Source of the DNA: a virus
Length of the DNA: 55,006 nucleotides
Reading direction: 5' to 3' (one strand)
Virus record (IMG/VR): IMGVR_UViG_3300010430_000053
Span: 1-55,006 of that record
Part shown: piece by piece, positions 28,830 to 39,338 of the stretch
How positions within the stretch are numbered: the stretch's first letter is position 1
Layout: the number at the start of each line of letters is the position of its first letter
Made by a program: the position numbers and the translations under genes
Notes under the pieces: model-generated
Database searches by the model: none
What the model saw: the letters and a program-made list of their open reading frames with translations, nothing else
Told to the model about the DNA's origin: nothing

Positions 28830-28901
28830 TCAGAAGACTGTTGCGATACTGGCAAATAAGATTGCCAATACCATGAATTCGAGAATTGCCTTGCGTATCA
28901 T
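28830..28901 (-). CDS. Membrane micropeptide
   Basis: A 23-aa peptide, MIRKAILEFMVLAILFASIA plus TVF, a single predicted transmembrane helix. Its ATG overlaps the TGA of the upstream gene (ATGA), so it would be translated by coupling. It may act on the host membrane. A 6-bp hairpin GTCTTC/GAAGAC covers its stop. Confidence 0.45.
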   Translation of the reverse strand: MIRKAILEFMVLAILFASIATVF

Positions 28902-29101
28902 GAGATCAATTCATATTTAATTGCAGTTGTTTTTTTAGTCATTGTTAGGTTGTAACTATCGGGCAACCCCCTTTTCAAAGTCTTAAACACAAAATCCGCA
29001 TGTCGCTCCGTTGTGTTATCCGGCCCGTTACGGTCAACGGTTACTGTAAAATCATGCATACCCTTGTAAGCAACATTGATTTTATATGTTTCTTTGTCCA
29101 T
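28898..29101 (-). CDS. Small hypothetical protein
   Basis: A 67-aa protein (MDKETYKINVAYKGMHDFTV, then NTTERHADFVFKTLKRG). I chose the ATG at 29101, behind AAGGAAAG. An in-frame ATG nine codons upstream lies in a leader that is repeated before the next gene. Function unknown. Confidence 0.6.
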   Translation of the reverse strand: MDKETYKINVAYKGMHDFTVTVDRNGPDNTTERHADFVFKTLKRGLPDSYNLTMTKKTTAIKYELIS

Positions 29102-29145
29102 TGTCTTAACTTTCCTTGTTTGAACCATCTGGTCCGTTGTTCGTT
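29102..29145. repeat. Repeated gene leader, copy 1
   Basis: About 44 bp nearly identical to 29452..29495, each directly before a start codon and each carrying AAGGAAAG. Such duplicated leaders suggest gene gain by recombination at shared 5' ends. Confidence 0.7.
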
Positions 29146-29253: not shown

Positions 29254-29451
29254 TCATACCCCCGCTTGTTTCCTAAGTGAGGCCCGCAGTTCCATGAACT
29301 TGGGAGAAGCCATATCACAAGGCACGGCACCGAATTCCAAGGCCAATGATATGAATTGATCATCAATCACATCTGAATTGCAGTCGTCACCAAAACAGTT
29401 GTGGGAGATTGCCATGGAAACTTGATTGAAGGCTTGTTGAATTGCTGCCAT
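29254..29451 (-). CDS. Small hypothetical protein, first gene of the early-left block
   Basis: A 65-aa protein (MAAIQQAFNQVSMAISHNCF, then ISLALEFGAVPCDMASPKFM). The ATG at 29451 follows AAGGAAAG in the repeated leader. It is the first gene after the leftward promoter at 29613..29639. Function unknown. Confidence 0.55.
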   Translation of the reverse strand: MAAIQQAFNQVSMAISHNCFGDDCNSDVIDDQFISLALEFGAVPCDMASPKFMELRASLRKQAGV

Positions 29452-29495
29452 TGTCTTAACTTTCCTTGTTTGAACCATCTGGTCCGTTGTTCGTT
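29452..29495. repeat. Repeated gene leader, copy 2
   Basis: Partner of 29102..29145, at the 5' end of the first early-left gene. Confidence 0.7.
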
Positions 29496-31501: not shown

Positions 31502-31984
31502 ATGAATATTGATTATCGTATCGGAGACATGTTCAAAGGTGAACATAAGTATATTGCTCATGGGTGTAACGCCCAAGGCGTCATGGGTTCTGGTGTAGCA
31601 AAGATTGTTAAAGATAACTACTACTATGCCTTTAAGGGTTATGCTAGTTGGTATCGTGACTGTGGACTTAAGTTAGGTCAGGTAATCAGATCTTCCGTCT
31701 CACACCAAGAGTTTGGATTAGGTAACAAACCAACAATCTTTAACTGTATCACTCAAGACCACTATGGTACAGATCAACGGTATGCTAACTACGGAGCTAT
31801 TCAAAGTTGTATCCAAGAGATTGATTACTACATGTGTAACCATACTAAACTAGGTTCTAAGGAAGAAGTAGCTTTCCCTATGATTGGTGCTGGTCTAGCT
31901 GGTGGTGACTGGGGTATCATCTCTAAGATCATTGAACGTGAATCTAATTACTTCCAGCCTGTAGTTTATGACTTTACACCATAA
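31502..31984 (+). CDS. Macro-domain protein (ADP-ribose binding or processing)
   Basis: A 160-aa single macro domain. The ADP-ribose pocket is visible as YIAHGCNAQGVMGSGVAKIV (residues 17-36) and the second loop as VAFPMIGAGLAGGDWGIISK (residues 122-141), the Poa1p/ADP-ribose-1''-phosphatase-like pattern. Such enzymes remove or bind ADP-ribose groups. It lies 290 bp before the NAMPT-like gene, so a shared role in NAD/ADP-ribose handling is likely. It starts behind AGGAGAAG. Confidence 0.88.
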   Translation: MNIDYRIGDMFKGEHKYIAHGCNAQGVMGSGVAKIVKDNYYYAFKGYASWYRDCGLKLGQVIRSSVSHQEFGLGNKPTIFNCITQDHYGTDQRYANYGAIQSCIQEIDYYMCNHTKLGSKEEVAFPMIGAGLAGGDWGIISKIIERESNYFQPVVYDFTP

Positions 31985-32033
31985 CTTAGGTGTGTTACTA
32001 CAGTTATAACGAAACAAACAAGGAGAAAAATTA

Positions 32034-32273
32034 ATGAAGATTTATGTTTTTGCTAAAGGTACGGGTGATGGTTCTGTGCGACTTGTCTATACTAAAGATA
32101 AAGATTTCTTTAGTTCCATCTGTGAGGCAGAAGATTATCCATATGACCCTTATGAGGATTTTGGTGCTAATGAGACACCTTCTGTAATTAACCTGCCTGA
32201 TGATTTTGATATTGACACATTAGGTGTGAAAGTGTATGAAACAGCAGAAGAATACCTCAAGGAGTATAACTAA
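32034..32273 (+). CDS. Small acidic protein upstream of NAMPT
   Basis: A 79-aa acidic protein (YVFAKGTGDGSVRLVYTKDK, then LPDDFDIDTLGVKVYETAEE). It ends on the first base of the NAMPT-like gene, so the two are coupled. Not recognised. Confidence 0.65.
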   Translation: MKIYVFAKGTGDGSVRLVYTKDKDFFSSICEAEDYPYDPYEDFGANETPSVINLPDDFDIDTLGVKVYETAEEYLKEYN

Positions 32274-33832
32274 TGGAACAACAATATAACCTGATGTACA
32301 TGGCAGACTTCTACAAAGTCTCTCATAAGGCACAATACCCAGAGAATGTAACTAATGTTTCATCTACTCTGGTGGCTCGTGGGGCTAACTACAATGATCA
32401 AATCTCTAAAGATCGTTTCTTTTGGTTTGGTGCTAAGCTGTTTATTGAGAAGCTCAAGAGTTTCGAAAGTTGGTTCTTTGATATGAACCATAATGAAATT
32501 GCAGAGGTTGTAGGGGAGTACAAAACTTTCCTAGATAATCGTCTTGGGGGTGACAATAGTGTGGACCACTGGATTGACCTGTGGTATCTTGATCAAAGAC
32601 TTCCTATCACTATCCATATTCAACCAGAACGTACATGGCAGGACTTCCAGACACCTCTTGTTGTAGTTGAGAATACTCATGAAGAATTTGCTTGGTTGAC
32701 ATCTTTCATTGAAACCACTATGCTCTCCAATGTCTGGGGTGTAACTACTGCTGCTAACCGTGCTGCACATATCCGACAGACTATCGAAAGCTTCATGGAA
32801 GGTTACTCTGATGATGAACTGGCTGCTGTTGACTTCATGGGACACGATTTCTCTTATCGTGGGATTCTTGGTGATGAAGGTGCTGTACTTACTGGGTGTG
32901 GCCATCTGTCGGTGTTTAAAGGTTCTGATACTATCCCCGCTGCACGGGCTATGGAACGTGTATATGGAGAGGTCACTGGGTTTTCTGTCCCGGCTACTGA
33001 GCATTCGGTAATGTGTGCTGGTGGTCAGGAGACAGAGGCTGAGACCTATAATCGTATCCTTGATATCTACCCTTCTGGTATCGTCTCTATTGTTAGTGAT
33101 ACTTGGGATTACTTTAAGGTTCTAACTGAGACTATCCCTGCTATGAAGGACCGTATCATGGGTCGTGATGGTAAGGTAGTTATCCGTCCTGACTCTGGTG
33201 ACCCTGTAGATATCGTCTGTGGTGTACCTTTTAAGGTAATCGAATCTGGGGTAGATATTGAGGATTGGGTCAGTGATTACATTTGGGATGCAGCTATTAA
33301 AGATGTACCTCATGGTGAAATGGGGGATATGGAGGCGGAGGTTATCGTGTCTCAAGGTGGACAAGCCTACGTAGCTACTGCTGACCTATTCTGGAATCGT
33401 TATGATAAACAGTACTATTTCCTTGACGAAATAGAGGACCTTAAGGTTGAACCTATTGATATGACACCAGAACAGAAGGGAACTCTGGAACTACTGGATG
33501 AAACTTTTGGTCATACTCTGGACTCTGCTGGCCTTAAGGTACTTGACAGTCACATTGGAGTGATCTATGGTGATGGTATGAACCAAGAACGTATCAAAGC
33601 TATGTTGACACGGATGGTAGCTAAGGGTTACAGTCCTCTGAACATCGTCTTTGGTATTGGTGCCTACACCTACCAGTTTATGACACGGGATGAACTGGGA
33701 TTTGCCTTCAAAGCTACTGCTGTTAAACAAGATGGTGAATGGGTGTCTATCCAGAAAGACCCTAAGACTGATCCGGGTAAGAAGTCTTTGACAGGTCGTC
33801 AGGATACCTATGGTATGGAACTTGTGTTTTAA
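32273..33832 (+). CDS. Nicotinamide phosphoribosyltransferase-like enzyme (NAMPT/Namat type)
   Basis: A 519-aa protein of the NAMPT family. Typical segments include LMYMADFYKVSHKAQYPENV at the start, then VDFMGHDFSYRG and SVPATEHSVMCAGG (about residues 180-250), the phosphate-binding VVIRPDSGDPVDIVCG (about 300-315) and VFGIGAYTYQFMTRDELGFAFKATAV near the end. Known members join nicotinamide with PRPP to give NMN. In phage NARP1 systems the homologue (Namat) joins nicotinamide with ADP-ribose-pyrophosphate to give NAD+. The Prs-like gene at 34415 makes the NARP1 option attractive. Confidence 0.93.
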   Translation: MEQQYNLMYMADFYKVSHKAQYPENVTNVSSTLVARGANYNDQISKDRFFWFGAKLFIEKLKSFESWFFDMNHNEIAEVVGEYKTFLDNRLGGDNSVDHWIDLWYLDQRLPITIHIQPERTWQDFQTPLVVVENTHEEFAWLTSFIETTMLSNVWGVTTAANRAAHIRQTIESFMEGYSDDELAAVDFMGHDFSYRGILGDEGAVLTGCGHLSVFKGSDTIPAARAMERVYGEVTGFSVPATEHSVMCAGGQETEAETYNRILDIYPSGIVSIVSDTWDYFKVLTETIPAMKDRIMGRDGKVVIRPDSGDPVDIVCGVPFKVIESGVDIEDWVSDYIWDAAIKDVPHGEMGDMEAEVIVSQGGQAYVATADLFWNRYDKQYYFLDEIEDLKVEPIDMTPEQKGTLELLDETFGHTLDSAGLKVLDSHIGVIYGDGMNQERIKAMLTRMVAKGYSPLNIVFGIGAYTYQFMTRDELGFAFKATAVKQDGEWVSIQKDPKTDPGKKSLTGRQDTYGMELVF

Positions 33833-33835
33833 TTA

Positions 33836-33873
33836 TTGACAAACAGTTGAGACTGGCTTAGGTTGGTCTCAAC
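33836..33873 (+). promoter_or_regulatory. Dyad promoter for the 33894 gene
   Basis: TTGACA (33836), 17 bp, TAGGTT (33859). Perfect 8-bp arms GTTGAGAC (33846..33853) and GTCTCAAC (33866..33873) enclose the -10 box. Confidence 0.7.
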
Positions 33874-33893
33874 AACAAACAAAGGAGATTCTC

Positions 33894-34235
33894 GTGAAAT
33901 TTATCTGGGAACGTGAAGATATTCAAGGTGGCCGCAAGATCGTAGCACCGACACTAAAAGGTGGCACAGAAGCCATTATTGCTTGGAATGGTTTGTCTGA
34001 AAAAGATGAACCTCGTAGATGGACTATTGTAGAGACTTCTACAGATGGTCGAGTACATGGACAGCATAAACCGGCTACAGAGTCCTCTGAATGTGTTTGG
34101 GAGAGTAGTGGACAAAAATTGGAGCTTGACCCTAAAACTAAAAACCTTATTTGGGTTAACTTTACTAAGGAAGAATTGGTAGATCATCTAAATAACTATG
34201 GACATCAGTGGATTCCTCTGGTAACTATAGCCTGA
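33894..34235 (+). CDS. Hypothetical protein
   Basis: A 113-aa protein rich in Trp and charged residues (MKFIWEREDIQGGRKIVAPT, then EPRRWTIVETSTDGRVHG and LVDHLNNYGHQWIPLVTI). Located between the NAMPT-like and Prs-like genes and under its own dyad promoter. Not recognised. Confidence 0.65.
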   Translation: MKFIWEREDIQGGRKIVAPTLKGGTEAIIAWNGLSEKDEPRRWTIVETSTDGRVHGQHKPATESSECVWESSGQKLELDPKTKNLIWVNFTKEELVDHLNNYGHQWIPLVTIA

Positions 34236-34256
34236 AGTAAAATAGAGGAGTAACTC

Positions 34257-34412
34257 ATGTTACTAGTAGTTGTCGTAGTGACAGAGGGTTGGTTTATCAC
34301 CTTGACACAAACCAACGAATACCTTATGAACAGTGTAGAAGAGTGTGAGACTGTAGCAGAAATTATACATCAAACAACACCTAACACTGTAGCTTATTGT
34401 AAAGGAGAATGA
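34257..34412 (+). CDS. Small two-Cys protein with hydrophobic start
   Basis: A 51-aa protein (MLLVVVVVTEGWFITL, then SVEECETVAEII and a second Cys in AYCKGE). It resembles 51489..51677 in layout and could be secreted or membrane-anchored. Good site TAGAGGAG before the ATG. Its stop overlaps an ATG of the next frame. Confidence 0.6.
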   Translation: MLLVVVVVTEGWFITLTQTNEYLMNSVEECETVAEIIHQTTPNTVAYCKGE

Positions 34413-34414
34413 CT

Positions 34415-35104
34415 ATGGAAACTTTTAAGTACTATCGCCGGGGTCAAGGTGAGCTTGACACAAGCAATTTCCCTGAAATTGTAGCTCAAGGTGAAGTGAC
34501 TGTAGATCGTCTTGATGAAAAGACTTTCACTTCTCTATCTTGCTTTATGATTTACCTCCGTCTAGAGAAGGTTAAAACTCCGTTCCCTCTTAAGATTAAA
34601 GGTTATGTTAACCATATGAGGGCTGACAAAGACTTGTATGACCCAGCTAAACACTACAGCCTACTCTCTAGTATTTTTAACATTGAGTGTTATCAAGTAC
34701 AGCATGACTCACGTTATGGTATTGTGTCTGCAAAAGTAGACCCTTTTGACGTGATGTATGACTTGGAGTTGGACCATAAGTGGTGTACTTTGTTTGTGGG
34801 GGCTGATTCTTCTGTACCAAAGTTCTTTCCTTCTATAGATACTTATGCTAATAAGGTACGTGAGAATGGTAAGGTGGTCTCTCTAGACTTTGATATGCCT
34901 AAGAAACATCAGATCAAACGTGTTGTTATTGTAGATGACCTTCTTGGGGGTGGAGCTACTGTTAAGATGTTGGTTGACAAGATCAAAGAAAGTGGCTACA
35001 AAGGTGAAGTATACCTTTGGGTTCAATATAATGAAGGGATTCATAAAGGTGAGTTCTTAAATCAGTTCAATGGTTACTACATTGGGCAAGATATCAGTAA
35101 ATAA
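34415..35104 (+). CDS. Ribose-phosphate pyrophosphokinase-like enzyme (Prs/Adps type)
   Basis: A 229-aa protein with the PRTase-type ribose-phosphate loop VVIVDDLLGGGATVKMLVDK (about residues 168-187) and a Prs-like GYVNHMRADKDLYDP segment near residue 67. Prs enzymes are about 310 aa, so this is a short member. In the NARP1 pathway the Prs homologue Adps puts pyrophosphate on ADP-ribose, and the NAMPT homologue then makes NAD+. The ATG at 34415 is preferred over 34409 because GGAG is seven bases away. Confidence 0.82.
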   Translation: METFKYYRRGQGELDTSNFPEIVAQGEVTVDRLDEKTFTSLSCFMIYLRLEKVKTPFPLKIKGYVNHMRADKDLYDPAKHYSLLSSIFNIECYQVQHDSRYGIVSAKVDPFDVMYDLELDHKWCTLFVGADSSVPKFFPSIDTYANKVRENGKVVSLDFDMPKKHQIKRVVIVDDLLGGGATVKMLVDKIKESGYKGEVYLWVQYNEGIHKGEFLNQFNGYYIGQDISK

Positions 35105-36336: not shown

Positions 36337-38325
36337 ATGATTATCCAACAAGCAACTAAAGGTACAGTCACTAACGTTATGGATAGTGCTGAGTTTGGTA
36401 TCCAGAATTCTGGTAAGATGTTCAAGATGGTTATCTCAGGTCTGTACTCAAAGAAGGCCGAGAGTATTACTCGTGAGATTTGGTCTAATGCTTTTGATGC
36501 TCATTGCATGAAAGGTACACCAGATCGTCCTTTCGAAGTAACTCTCCCTTCCACCTTCCGTCCTGAGTTTAAGGTACGTGACTTTGGTGAAGGTCTTTCC
36601 TATGATTGGATGAAAAAGAACTACACAATCCTTGGTCATAGCTCCAAGGAAAATACTAACCTTGCTGTTGGTAAGTGGGGCGTTGGTCGTATGTCTCCTA
36701 TGTCATACACTGACACCTTCTCTGTAGTATCTATCCATGAGGGCATTAAGACCTCATACAATGTTACTATGGAAGGTTCTGGTGAACCTCGTCTGAATGT
36801 TCTTATTCCTCCAATGGAAACAGAAGAAGAATCTGGTCTTGAGATTAGTTTTCCTGTAGCACGTCCTGATTATCAGTCTTTCATTCAGGCAGCTAATCGT
36901 GTATCACTTGGTTTTAATGTTAAGCCTGTGGTTATTGGTCAGAAGTCTTTCGAATGGCCTAAGTTTGAACGTAACACAGAGGGCGAAGGTTACTCTACAT
37001 TCTCTGTGAGTGGCATGGGTATTGGTACTTGCCTTATCCAGATGGGTTGTGTTATCTATCCTGTAAACCTCAATGAACTAGACTTGGATTATAACACTAA
37101 GTCTATTATCCAACAAATGAGGATCATCATGGATGTACCTATTGGTGCTGTAGAGGTTACAGCCTCTCGTGAAGACCTTTCGTATGGACCTAAGGAACCT
37201 ACTAAGAATTATCTGAGAGGGCGTGTGATGGGTATTGTAGCCTCTCTGGTTAAGGATGCTAGTGTAGGCCTTGATAAGTGTAAGACGCCTTATGAGGCCT
37301 TCCAGTTCATTCGTAACAGTGGCCTTCCACATAGCCTTAAGACCCAACTTAAGTGGGGCGACTATGATAAACTACACAGTTCGTACACTATGCCTTACGT
37401 AACTGCTGTGTTCCATAAGAATTACACTAAGGCTGTTAAGACAAGCACCAGAAGTACCTCACAATCTGTAAATGCAATTTTTGTGTCTTATAATAAAGGT
37501 CCAAAGAATGACGTTAGAGCAGAAGCACGGGTACGTAGCTGGGTAGTCTCTACAGGTACTCGTGTTGAGTACACTTTGTTGGTACGTCTTGAATGGGATA
37601 AGGAGACTAAAACATATGTTGAAGATGATCTTACAAAAGTTAAACAATTTTTTGGTACGTCACTGGTTCGTAACGTGTCTGATCTTTCTGATGTTACCCC
37701 AGTAAAACGTACAGCCTCTAAAGCTAAGGCGTATGATGCTTTCTGGAACGACATTGAAGTTGACATGGATCAAGGTGGGTTCTACTTTGAGAGTTACAGT
37801 GGAAATGTAGAAGGGGTTGGTTACAGATACCATGGGTTGAACTACAAAAGCATCCCGGAGATTGGCTCTAAGCAAGTAGTGATTGTACCTAAGACACTCT
37901 GGAAACGGTTTGAGGCTAATGATAAGTGGACTAAGATTGTACCTACCCTAAAGAAATGGGTTGAGGGCAACATTAAGCCTTTACAAGAGGTGTTAGAGAA
38001 GTCTAACTATCGTGATGGTATTGGACTACAGAAACGTAAGGATATGTTCTCTGGTATTATTAAAACCTACTATAACGAGCTTGATAAGGTTAAAGACTCA
38101 CACGTTGGTTTTAACCATTACCAGTGTAGCTACCTTATTGATATGTTTAGCAGTGCAGCATCTGATGTTAGTAGTAAGCCTCATACTCTAGATAGTCTGG
38201 AAGATAAAATCTATAGGGATTACCCTTTGCTGGACTGCTACCAACATAGTATTACGTCTAAGTTGGATGCCTACACGCAGTATGTTTTGGCACTAGATGC
38301 CTTTCGTGCTAAAAATAAGTCTTGA
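36337..38325 (+). CDS. rIIA-like protein (GHKL ATPase)
   Basis: A 662-aa protein. The Bergerat ATP-binding fold is seen as REIWSNAFDAHCMKG (Asn/Asp at about residues 51-54), VRDFGEGLSYDWM (about 81-93) and NLAVGKWGVGRMSPMSYTDT (about 108-127). This is the rIIA pattern of T4-like and many marine phages. It is followed by an rIIB-like gene, as in T4. In T4 the pair counters exclusion by the lambda rex system; here the role is likely host-defence or membrane related. Confidence 0.88.
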   Translation: MIIQQATKGTVTNVMDSAEFGIQNSGKMFKMVISGLYSKKAESITREIWSNAFDAHCMKGTPDRPFEVTLPSTFRPEFKVRDFGEGLSYDWMKKNYTILGHSSKENTNLAVGKWGVGRMSPMSYTDTFSVVSIHEGIKTSYNVTMEGSGEPRLNVLIPPMETEEESGLEISFPVARPDYQSFIQAANRVSLGFNVKPVVIGQKSFEWPKFERNTEGEGYSTFSVSGMGIGTCLIQMGCVIYPVNLNELDLDYNTKSIIQQMRIIMDVPIGAVEVTASREDLSYGPKEPTKNYLRGRVMGIVASLVKDASVGLDKCKTPYEAFQFIRNSGLPHSLKTQLKWGDYDKLHSSYTMPYVTAVFHKNYTKAVKTSTRSTSQSVNAIFVSYNKGPKNDVRAEARVRSWVVSTGTRVEYTLLVRLEWDKETKTYVEDDLTKVKQFFGTSLVRNVSDLSDVTPVKRTASKAKAYDAFWNDIEVDMDQGGFYFESYSGNVEGVGYRYHGLNYKSIPEIGSKQVVIVPKTLWKRFEANDKWTKIVPTLKKWVEGNIKPLQEVLEKSNYRDGIGLQKRKDMFSGIIKTYYNELDKVKDSHVGFNHYQCSYLIDMFSSAASDVSSKPHTLDSLEDKIYRDYPLLDCYQHSITSKLDAYTQYVLALDAFRAKNKS

Positions 38326-38358
38326 CAAGTAACTCGGGTTACACTAAAGTAACCTGAG
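38322..38358 (+). promoter_or_regulatory. Dyad promoter for the rIIB-like gene
   Basis: TTGACA (38322), 17 bp, TAAAGT (38345). Ten-bp arms CTCGGGTTAC (38333..38342) and GTAACCTGAG (38349..38358), with one G-T, enclose the -10 box. Confidence 0.75.
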
Positions 38359-38381
38359 ATAACAAACAGGAGAAACAAAAT

Positions 38382-39338
38382 ATGACAAACGTAATCTATA
38401 CATACAGTGGTGATAGTGTCACTGTGGTTCTTAATGGTGAGATCTTTACTATCACCTCCAGTGAAAAGTCCTATGACTCTCTGGTTAAAGAGCTTAAGAA
38501 AACTACACATGATGTGGAAGCTATTGGAGACCTTCTGGATAAGCGTAAGGCTGTCGAGAAGTTCAGCCAAGGCTCCGTGACAATTGAAGGCTCTACAGTC
38601 CTCTACAAAGGTGAGGAAGTTAATGACTCTCTGACTGAGAAGATGGTAACCCTGATGGATGAAGGGTTTAACATTGGTCCTTGGGTCAACTTCTTTGAGA
38701 ACCTTATGGAGAATCCTTCTTTCCGTAGCCGTAAGTGTCTGTTTAACTTCCTTGAGAAGTTCCAAGCACCCTTCACTGAGGATGGTTGTTTTGTTGCATT
38801 CAAACGTGTAGACCAGAACTTCAAAGACCTTCGTACACATAAGATGGATAACTCTGTAGGTGCTGTAGTTAAAATGAACCGGAGTGATGTGGATGATGAT
38901 CCTAACAACACATGTTCCTCTGGTCTTCACGTAGCAGCGTCTAGCTATCTGGACAGTTATGCCAATGCTTCTCGTGCTAAGACTATTATGCTTAAAGTTA
39001 ACCCTCGTGATGTGGTAGCTGTACCCCATGATTACAACTTTGCTAAGATGCGGGTGTGTCAGTATGAAGTGATTGCAGATATCACTGTAGAGCAGATGGC
39101 TGATCTTGAGTCTCGTACTGTTGTTACCGATGACTGGGAAGTGTTTGATTGCACTGCCGACGATGATGACTGGGAAGTTGGTGATTATATCACTTGTACA
39201 GACCCTAAGGGGGTAGACTACTTGACAGCAGGTAATCGGTATCTTATCACAAGAGTAGATTACTATGACGACACTGTTAAGGTGGTTGATGATGATGGTG
39301 ACGAGGTGTGGCTAGACTTCGATGGTAGCAGTTACTAA
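38382..39338 (+). CDS. rIIB-like protein
   Basis: A 318-aa protein. Residues about 75-200 match the rIIB pattern: FSQGSVTIEGSTVLYKGEEV, GPWVNFFENLMENPSFRSRK, LFNFLEKFQAPFTEDGCFVA, and CSSGLHVAASSYLDSY followed by VNPRDVVAVPHDYNFAKMRV. The C-terminal 70 residues are a separate acidic SH3-like tail (DDWEVGDYITCTDPKGVDYL). Partner of the rIIA-like protein directly upstream. Confidence 0.88.
   Translation: MTNVIYTYSGDSVTVVLNGEIFTITSSEKSYDSLVKELKKTTHDVEAIGDLLDKRKAVEKFSQGSVTIEGSTVLYKGEEVNDSLTEKMVTLMDEGFNIGPWVNFFENLMENPSFRSRKCLFNFLEKFQAPFTEDGCFVAFKRVDQNFKDLRTHKMDNSVGAVVKMNRSDVDDDPNNTCSSGLHVAASSYLDSYANASRAKTIMLKVNPRDVVAVPHDYNFAKMRVCQYEVIADITVEQMADLESRTVVTDDWEVFDCTADDDDWEVGDYITCTDPKGVDYLTAGNRYLITRVDYYDDTVKVVDDDGDEVWLDFDGSSY

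Follow-up and report, generated by a model that had tools for sequence, protein, structure and literature searches.

Introduction

The closest described relatives of the locus reported here are the NAD+ reconstitution (NARP1) systems of the phages SPbetaL1 and ICP1 (NrsAB) and of mycobacteriophage DyoEdafos, in which Namat, a nicotinamide ADP-ribose transferase with a clamp motif and a full catalytic set, is encoded near a partner of the Prs family, Adps, and in which no nicotinamide mononucleotide (NMN) adenylyltransferase is needed. Solved structures (PMC12774641) set Namat apart by a selectivity clamp with two elements: a helix with the motif GSX-phi-X-phi-X-phi-TRD (SCH), with aromatics at positions 3 and 7, and, in the beta1-beta2 loop (SCL), a residue that stacks on adenine (Arg, Lys or Tyr as third residue). 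A third gene in such a locus has a precedent in the operon of DyoEdafos (gp77-79), where RyDEP, a RyR-domain glycosidase, is encoded between adps and namat, and its product, ADP-ribose, is converted to NAD+ via Adps and Namat (PMC13232231). In this work, we analysed positions 31,502 to 35,104 of the IMG/VR virus record IMGVR_UViG_3300010430_000053 (positions 1 to 55,006; this whole stretch of 55,006 bases is called the window), in which a preliminary description had read a NAMPT-like gene and a Prs-like gene beside a macro-domain gene as a probable NARP1-like module. We found that the locus is very likely a NARP1 module with a new, short type of Adps, and that macro-domain genes recur beside NARP1 in other phages.

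Results

The best PDB matches of the NAMPT-like protein were to Namat of SPbetaL1 (9w5x/9w5w, 1.3e-95), well ahead of Xcc Nampt (5e-63) and the human enzyme (8e-51). Its adenine-clamp (SCH) motif is GAYTYQFMTRD, with the aromatic residues Y (Y465) and F (F469) at positions 3 and 7, while the equivalent motif of Xcc Nampt, which the phage Nampts resemble, is GGALLQKVDRD; at motif positions 392, 394-396 and 398-400 the window protein thus has Y, Y-Q-F and T-R-D versus A, L-Q-K and D-R-D in Xcc Nampt. Position 2 of the clamp is Ala rather than Ser, as it also is in L023 and in Listeria phage L007, and position 7 is Leu in some relatives of the window protein. The catalytic core of SPbetaL1 Namat (D13, Y15, F189, R192, D215, H245, R306, D308) is identical throughout, and the nicotinamide, ribose and phosphate residues listed for Namat are kept with the exceptions S391A and A362G, so that the alignment of pocket residues called for in the preliminary description came out in favour of Namat. 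The SCL loop reads R-G-A-N-Y-N. Its Tyr40 does not vary among the clade members, but a Tyr occupies the same position in Xcc Nampt, and the loop is not diagnostic.

A maximum-likelihood tree placed the window protein within a 49-row Namat clade (Shimodaira-Hasegawa-like approximate likelihood ratio test, SH-aLRT, 99%), apart from Xcc Nampt and the phage Nampts; a grouping with ordinary NAMPT, which had been named as a possible refutation, was not obtained. Within this clade, six members including the window protein form a group with 100% support, which is basal to the other Namats on a long stem (branch length 0.95) and so lies on a separate deep branch from the known NARP1 systems. An insert of ~80 residues (residues ~320-400) precedes the C-terminal half of the protein. 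L002 and SPbetaL1 lack this insert, which DSS3_VP1, L014 and several further phage Namats have. Judged by its sequence, the 519-aa protein represents a distinct, deep-branching type of Namat. In another contig (L175:11610-14516), an Adps gene adjoins a Namat/Nampt intermediate with the motif GVGGLLLQDHSRD, which branches between Nampt and Namat and has a macro gene 1.2 kb away; it is possibly a transitional enzyme.

The Prs-like protein is far more divergent. A single-sequence search against PDB, Pfam and NCBIfam returned only sub-threshold phosphoribosyltransferase matches, and a reliable tree is precluded by the divergence of the protein. A profile built from the short proteins, however, aligned with six classical Adps in hhalign (E 7.6e-8, 94.5%, 166 columns). 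R71, D73, H99, D133, K149, R151, D176 and D177 have aligned counterparts in E. coli Prs as well as in classical Adps and do not vary among nine sequences; they cover the catalytic elements of the Prs type, namely RxDK, the His, the PD-type Asp, the KxR flexible loop and the DD of the phosphoribosyl pyrophosphate (PRPP) loop. The 5-phosphate loop, GGGAT, differs from the TGGT of Prs and from the DGGxT found in many Adps. With 16-22% identity to classical Adps and ~229 aa versus 280-305 aa, the protein falls outside the classical family, and it probably represents a divergent sister type of it. Its shortness had been taken as a hint of a changed substrate. We rejected length as a sign of substrate, because true Prs exceeds classical Adps in length too and the deletions are spread over both ends; the extra shortening beyond classical Adps is lineage-specific.

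Only two close records of the short protein were found among 50,697 phage entries, and both are copies of DSS3_VP1 (Noahvirus arc, Naomviridae), where the gene adjoins namat and is annotated as a hypothetical protein. DSS3_VP1 gp030 belongs to the same Namat clade (60% identical), gp029 is the same short Adps (51%), and the gene order is the same; unlike in the window, the two genes are adjacent, and this complete genome has no macro gene. Further relatives came from scans of IMG/VR and GTDB contigs (L002, L013, L014, L017/L018, L020, L022, L023). There are thus eight distinct homologues outside the window, of which seven lie beside an intact namat and one (L013) beside a truncated remnant, indicating that the pairing is not due to chance. 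The adps and namat genes overlap by 1 bp in L002 and are 10 bp apart in DSS3_VP1. The order is namat then adps throughout except in L023. This order, which the window has as well, and the two small open reading frames (ORFs) between the two genes of the window are further differences from the known systems. In L023 (5926-8172), a classical namat is immediately preceded by the short adps, as in the known NARP1 order. This swap into the position of classical adps speaks strongly for an Adps function of the short protein. The L023 contig was binned as a Methylophaga metagenome-assembled genome, carries an rIIA-like gene and is probably a phage contig. In L013 (7877-8702), the intact short adps follows a truncated namat with ~47 codons left, which reflects either NARP1 decay or an assembly fault.

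Adps and Namat occur together in the window in the absence of an NMN adenylyltransferase, which is the two-gene arrangement of NARP1. PF01467, the NMN adenylyltransferase family, was absent from the window and from the complete DSS3_VP1 genome in a scan that was positive in the Nampt phage CcrBL10. NADAR (PF08719) was looked for in the window and its relatives and not found.

The AlphaFold2 model of the macro-domain protein (predicted local distance difference test, pLDDT, 90) matched the DarG macro domain, BT1257, Poa1p, SCO6735 and TARG1 in Foldseek, and by profile the nearest solved structures were BT1257 and SCO6735 (1e-25 to 4e-33), followed by TARG1, DarG and Poa1p. His20, Asn23 and Gln85 are invariant across the phage macro family; Gln85 and Asn23, which do not vary among 28 phage homologues, match Gln85 and Asn27 of SCO6735. 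The catalytic Lys of TARG1 and DarG (K84/K80) is replaced by Gln85, as in the ALC1-like macrodomains SCO6735 and BT1257. Val25 of SCO6735 differs, being Gly in the window protein, and this position is not conserved in the phage family. In SCO6735, Q85A abolishes activity, and the enzyme removes both DarT thymidine-ADP-ribose and protein ADP-ribose (PMC9411070). These similarities suggest that the window protein is likely an ADP-ribosyl hydrolase that releases ADP-ribose. Because the Gln essential in SCO6735 is kept, the macro family may release ADP-ribose for Adps.

We then looked at how often macro genes accompany NARP1 in phages at large. Within 5 kb of namat at 80 Namat loci, Adps was found at 71 and a macro gene at 18, always on the namat strand, these being the commonest of the neighbours tested, compared with 0-10 of 80 loci for ten core control genes; this sample was ranked on the macro-bearing phage Wyman and is biased to that extent, and without the three close relatives of Wyman the macro count is 15/77. 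For whole-record counts, PF01661 was too insensitive, and a phage macro profile was used instead. Of the 21 records that have macro and NARP1 and are no shorter than 45 kb, the macro gene lay within 5 kb of namat in 15, versus 2.3 expected, and after collapsing to 12 lineages, grouped by eye, in 6 of 12, versus 1.5 expected (P=0.0015). When loci were sampled from the macro side, Namat was found at 19 and Adps at 13 of 80 macro loci within 10 kb, compared with 0-5 for core genes. On the macro tree, which has few columns and gives approximate numbers, the location near NARP1 changes ~14 times, at least five of these changes being forced by well-supported branches.

The arrangement also varies: adps-macro-namat in Thalassavirus and L036, namat-macro in L030, L045, L163 and L180, and macro-adps-namat in L153 and L156, with macro and NARP1 genes overlapping or interleaved in several lineages. 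For cultured Vibrio phages, each of the best 40 macro matches touches a ribose-phosphate pyrophosphokinase gene. The Vibrio Thalassavirus isolates (Wyman, Ceto and AG74 among them; L009:1581-4587; H106-H145) share with the window a macro gene and NARP1 in one locus on one strand; they differ in the position of macro, between adps and namat with an overlap into adps, and in that Adps and Namat are of the classical types. Their macro gene is usually annotated as hypothetical or phosphatase. Macro genes also lie less than 4 kb from Nampt-type genes without the clamp in L138, L147, L155, L159 and L171, so that macro genes may be associated with any form of NAD+ rebuilding, including NMN-based synthesis; linkage in such Nampt-only phages is judged from the macro-first set alone, as the single-protein scan for a non-clamp Nampt control gave only three near-copies. 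In one phage contig (L021:6422-8380), the first 31 codons of a Namat 90% identical to that of the window are followed by unrelated ORFs, and a macro gene 55% identical to that of the window lies ~1.4 kb further on; here the macro gene has been retained next to a remnant of NARP1.

The features of the block are listed in Table 1. All six genes are co-directional, and the NAMPT-like and Prs-like genes, 582 bp apart, lie exactly where the preliminary description had put them. It had also placed the macro gene directly upstream; the gene is upstream and on the same strand, but a 79-aa ORF intervenes. This ORF has no Pfam or NCBIfam match, and the 113-aa ORF has no match in any library scanned. Shine-Dalgarno sequences are clear at the starts of the macro gene, the 79-aa ORF and the Prs-like gene. 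The last has an alternative start at 34409 (231 aa), and the gap of 582 bp is counted from 34415, which is preferred because AAGGAG lies ~7 nt upstream and METFKYY is also the N-terminus of the relatives. A promoter and terminator scan across the block gave matches at chance level.

Table 1 Features of the NARP1 block in the window
Feature	Positions	Strand	Remarks
Macro domain protein, ALC1/SCO6735-type, 160 aa	31502..31984	+	PF01661 at its cut-off; phrog_335 3e-36
79-aa ORF, phrog_13236	32034..32273	+	Stop overlaps Namat ATG (TAATG)
Namat, nicotinamide ADP-ribose transferase, 519 aa (by sequence)	32273..33832	+	NAPRTase/NAMPT_N; phrog_448 1e-144
113-aa ORF, GTG start	33894..34235	+	
51-aa ORF, weak phrog_16556	34257..34412	+	Ends at Adps start
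Adps-like short Prs-family protein, 229 aa	34415..35104	+	phrog_619 (ribose-phosphate pyrophosphokinase) 1.3e-6; PF00156 sub-threshold

By gene content, the record belongs to a tailed phage. Terminase, portal, head protease and tape measure genes are on the minus strand, and the replication genes (DNA polymerase A, primase/helicase, ribonucleotide reductase, thymidylate synthase) are on the plus strand; there are also 17 tRNAs. The record may be a fragment, while its relative DSS3_VP1 is a complete genome. Past the NARP1 block and four small ORFs lies a pair of rIIA-like and rIIB-like genes (phrog_612, phrog_609; 36337-39338). On the minus strand, two consecutive small ORFs (28898-29128 and 29254-29478) share the N-terminal peptide MVQTRKVKTM and differ beyond it, which suggests a duplicated leader or start region.

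Discussion

The clamp motif, the position in the Namat clade, the profile match of the short protein to Adps and its constant pairing with Namat bear out the NARP1-like reading of the locus. In the mechanism that we propose, host NADase defences (TIR, SIR2, SEFIR) would cleave NAD+ to give nicotinamide and ADP-ribose, Adps, here the short enzyme of the Prs family, would transfer pyrophosphate from ATP onto C1'' of ADP-ribose, and Namat would couple this product with nicotinamide to give NAD+, in two steps requiring neither PRPP nor an NMN adenylyltransferase. That ADP-ribose is the substrate of the short Adps is highly probable because of the Namat clamp, the constant pairing and the absence of NMN adenylyltransferases from both the window and DSS3_VP1. 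The macro domain would most likely free ADP-ribose from a conjugate, either ADP-ribosylated DNA or protein or 1''-blocked ADP-ribose, and its action would both reverse host ADP-ribosylation and supply Adps. Several observations weigh against this picture. The AlphaFold2 model of the short Adps is moderate (pLDDT 77, predicted template modelling score 0.57), its single-sequence similarity to Prs and Adps is clear only in the C-terminal PRPP-loop region, and it is the partner of the short Adps that points to ADP-ribose specificity. No macro gene was found in the other members of the window Namat clade, within the sequence examined, and on the macro tree the closest relatives of the window macro are mostly away from NARP1.

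Since its clade-mates have no macro gene and its macro relatives are mostly located elsewhere, the linkage in the window phage could be incidental. The macro protein may quite possibly be unrelated to NARP1, as an Appr-1''-P phosphatase of RNA repair or a stand-alone enzyme reversing DarT or other ADP-ribosylation, sharing only the early region with it. Phage macro domains are common and usually lie among early or RNA-repair genes (Iyer et al., PMC9503650), the linkage in the window clade is confined to one phage, and other early genes cluster too, with primase/helicase within 5 kb of namat in 10/80 loci. However, the excess of linkage over expectation, both by record and by lineage, the higher frequency of Namat than of core genes around macro genes, and the overlapping or interleaved genes in several lineages weigh against this alternative. 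The macro-NARP1 link is stronger globally than in the lineage of the window phage itself. Thus, the earlier suggestion that the macro protein extends the pathway gains from phages at large, where the linkage is stronger than had been noted, and loses in the lineage for which it was made.

A second alternative, which we regard as unlikely, is that the macro protein sequesters or hydrolyses Thoeris-type ADPR signals, in the manner of RyDEP, and is not a de-ADP-ribosylase. RyDEP holds the same place in the mycobacteriophage NARP1 operon and yields ADPR (PMC13232231), and Iyer et al. predict that phage macro domains act on small ADP-ribose derivatives (PMC9503650). Against this, the macro domains of ThsA are MacroD/macroH2A-like and do not bind 2'- or 3'-cyclic ADP-ribose, and the window protein is ALC1/SCO6735-like with the conserved Gln85, which is the de-ADP-ribosylase type. 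The window resembles the DyoEdafos operon in having a third ADPR-metabolism gene at the NARP1 locus. A phmmer search with RyDEP against the window and related ORFs gave no match at E 1.

The other two alternatives concern the NARP1 enzymes. Ordinary PRPP salvage, in which the Prs-like protein makes PRPP, the NAMPT-like protein makes NMN and host NadM/NadR adenylylates it (NARP2-like), is very improbable: Namat retains some Nampt activity with PRPP in vitro (PMC12774641), the Prs-like protein is divergent and the SCL loop R-G-A-N-Y is shared in its Tyr with Xcc Nampt, but the SCH clamp is present in place of the GGALLQ of Nampt, the protein stands in the Namat clade, and unlike a Nampt phage, neither the window nor DSS3_VP1 has an NMN adenylyltransferase. 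It is equally improbable that the short Prs-like protein is a base phosphoribosyltransferase or regulator merely accompanying Namat: its best single-domain matches in sequence and fold are phosphoribosyltransferases (PyrR, HPRT, APRT), but its N-terminal half aligns with Prs/Adps only, the RxDK, His, Asp and KxR positions are kept, all Foldseek matches of its model over more than 200 columns are PRPP synthetases, and it takes the adps position in L023.

For the NARP1 reading with a macro domain as third component, the window macro is possibly an enzyme that feeds released ADP-ribose into the pathway. More broadly, we tentatively propose that SCO6735-type phage macro domains are a recurrent third NARP1 enzyme, which would pass stripped or unblocked ADP-ribose to Adps and Namat and thus make ADP-ribosylation reversal and NAD+ rebuilding one pathway, with the NARP1 of the window, and its new short type of Adps, as the most divergent form seen. 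The available text of Iyer et al. (PMC9503650), which also describes NADAR near NadV/NadM, makes no mention of a macro-NARP1 link, and we found no mention of macro domains beside NARP1 in the accessible parts of the NARP1 literature other than the original NARP1 paper (Nature 2024), so that an earlier report is possible.

As a counter-defence, NARP1 defeats many NAD+-depleting systems simultaneously. Because the short Adps is missed by annotation, as in DSS3_VP1, counts of NARP1 in marine and environmental phages are probably too low. The macro linkage further raises the question of whether the removal of ADP-ribose marks feeds NAD+ synthesis, which can be addressed in cultured Vibrio phages with the adps-macro-namat arrangement.

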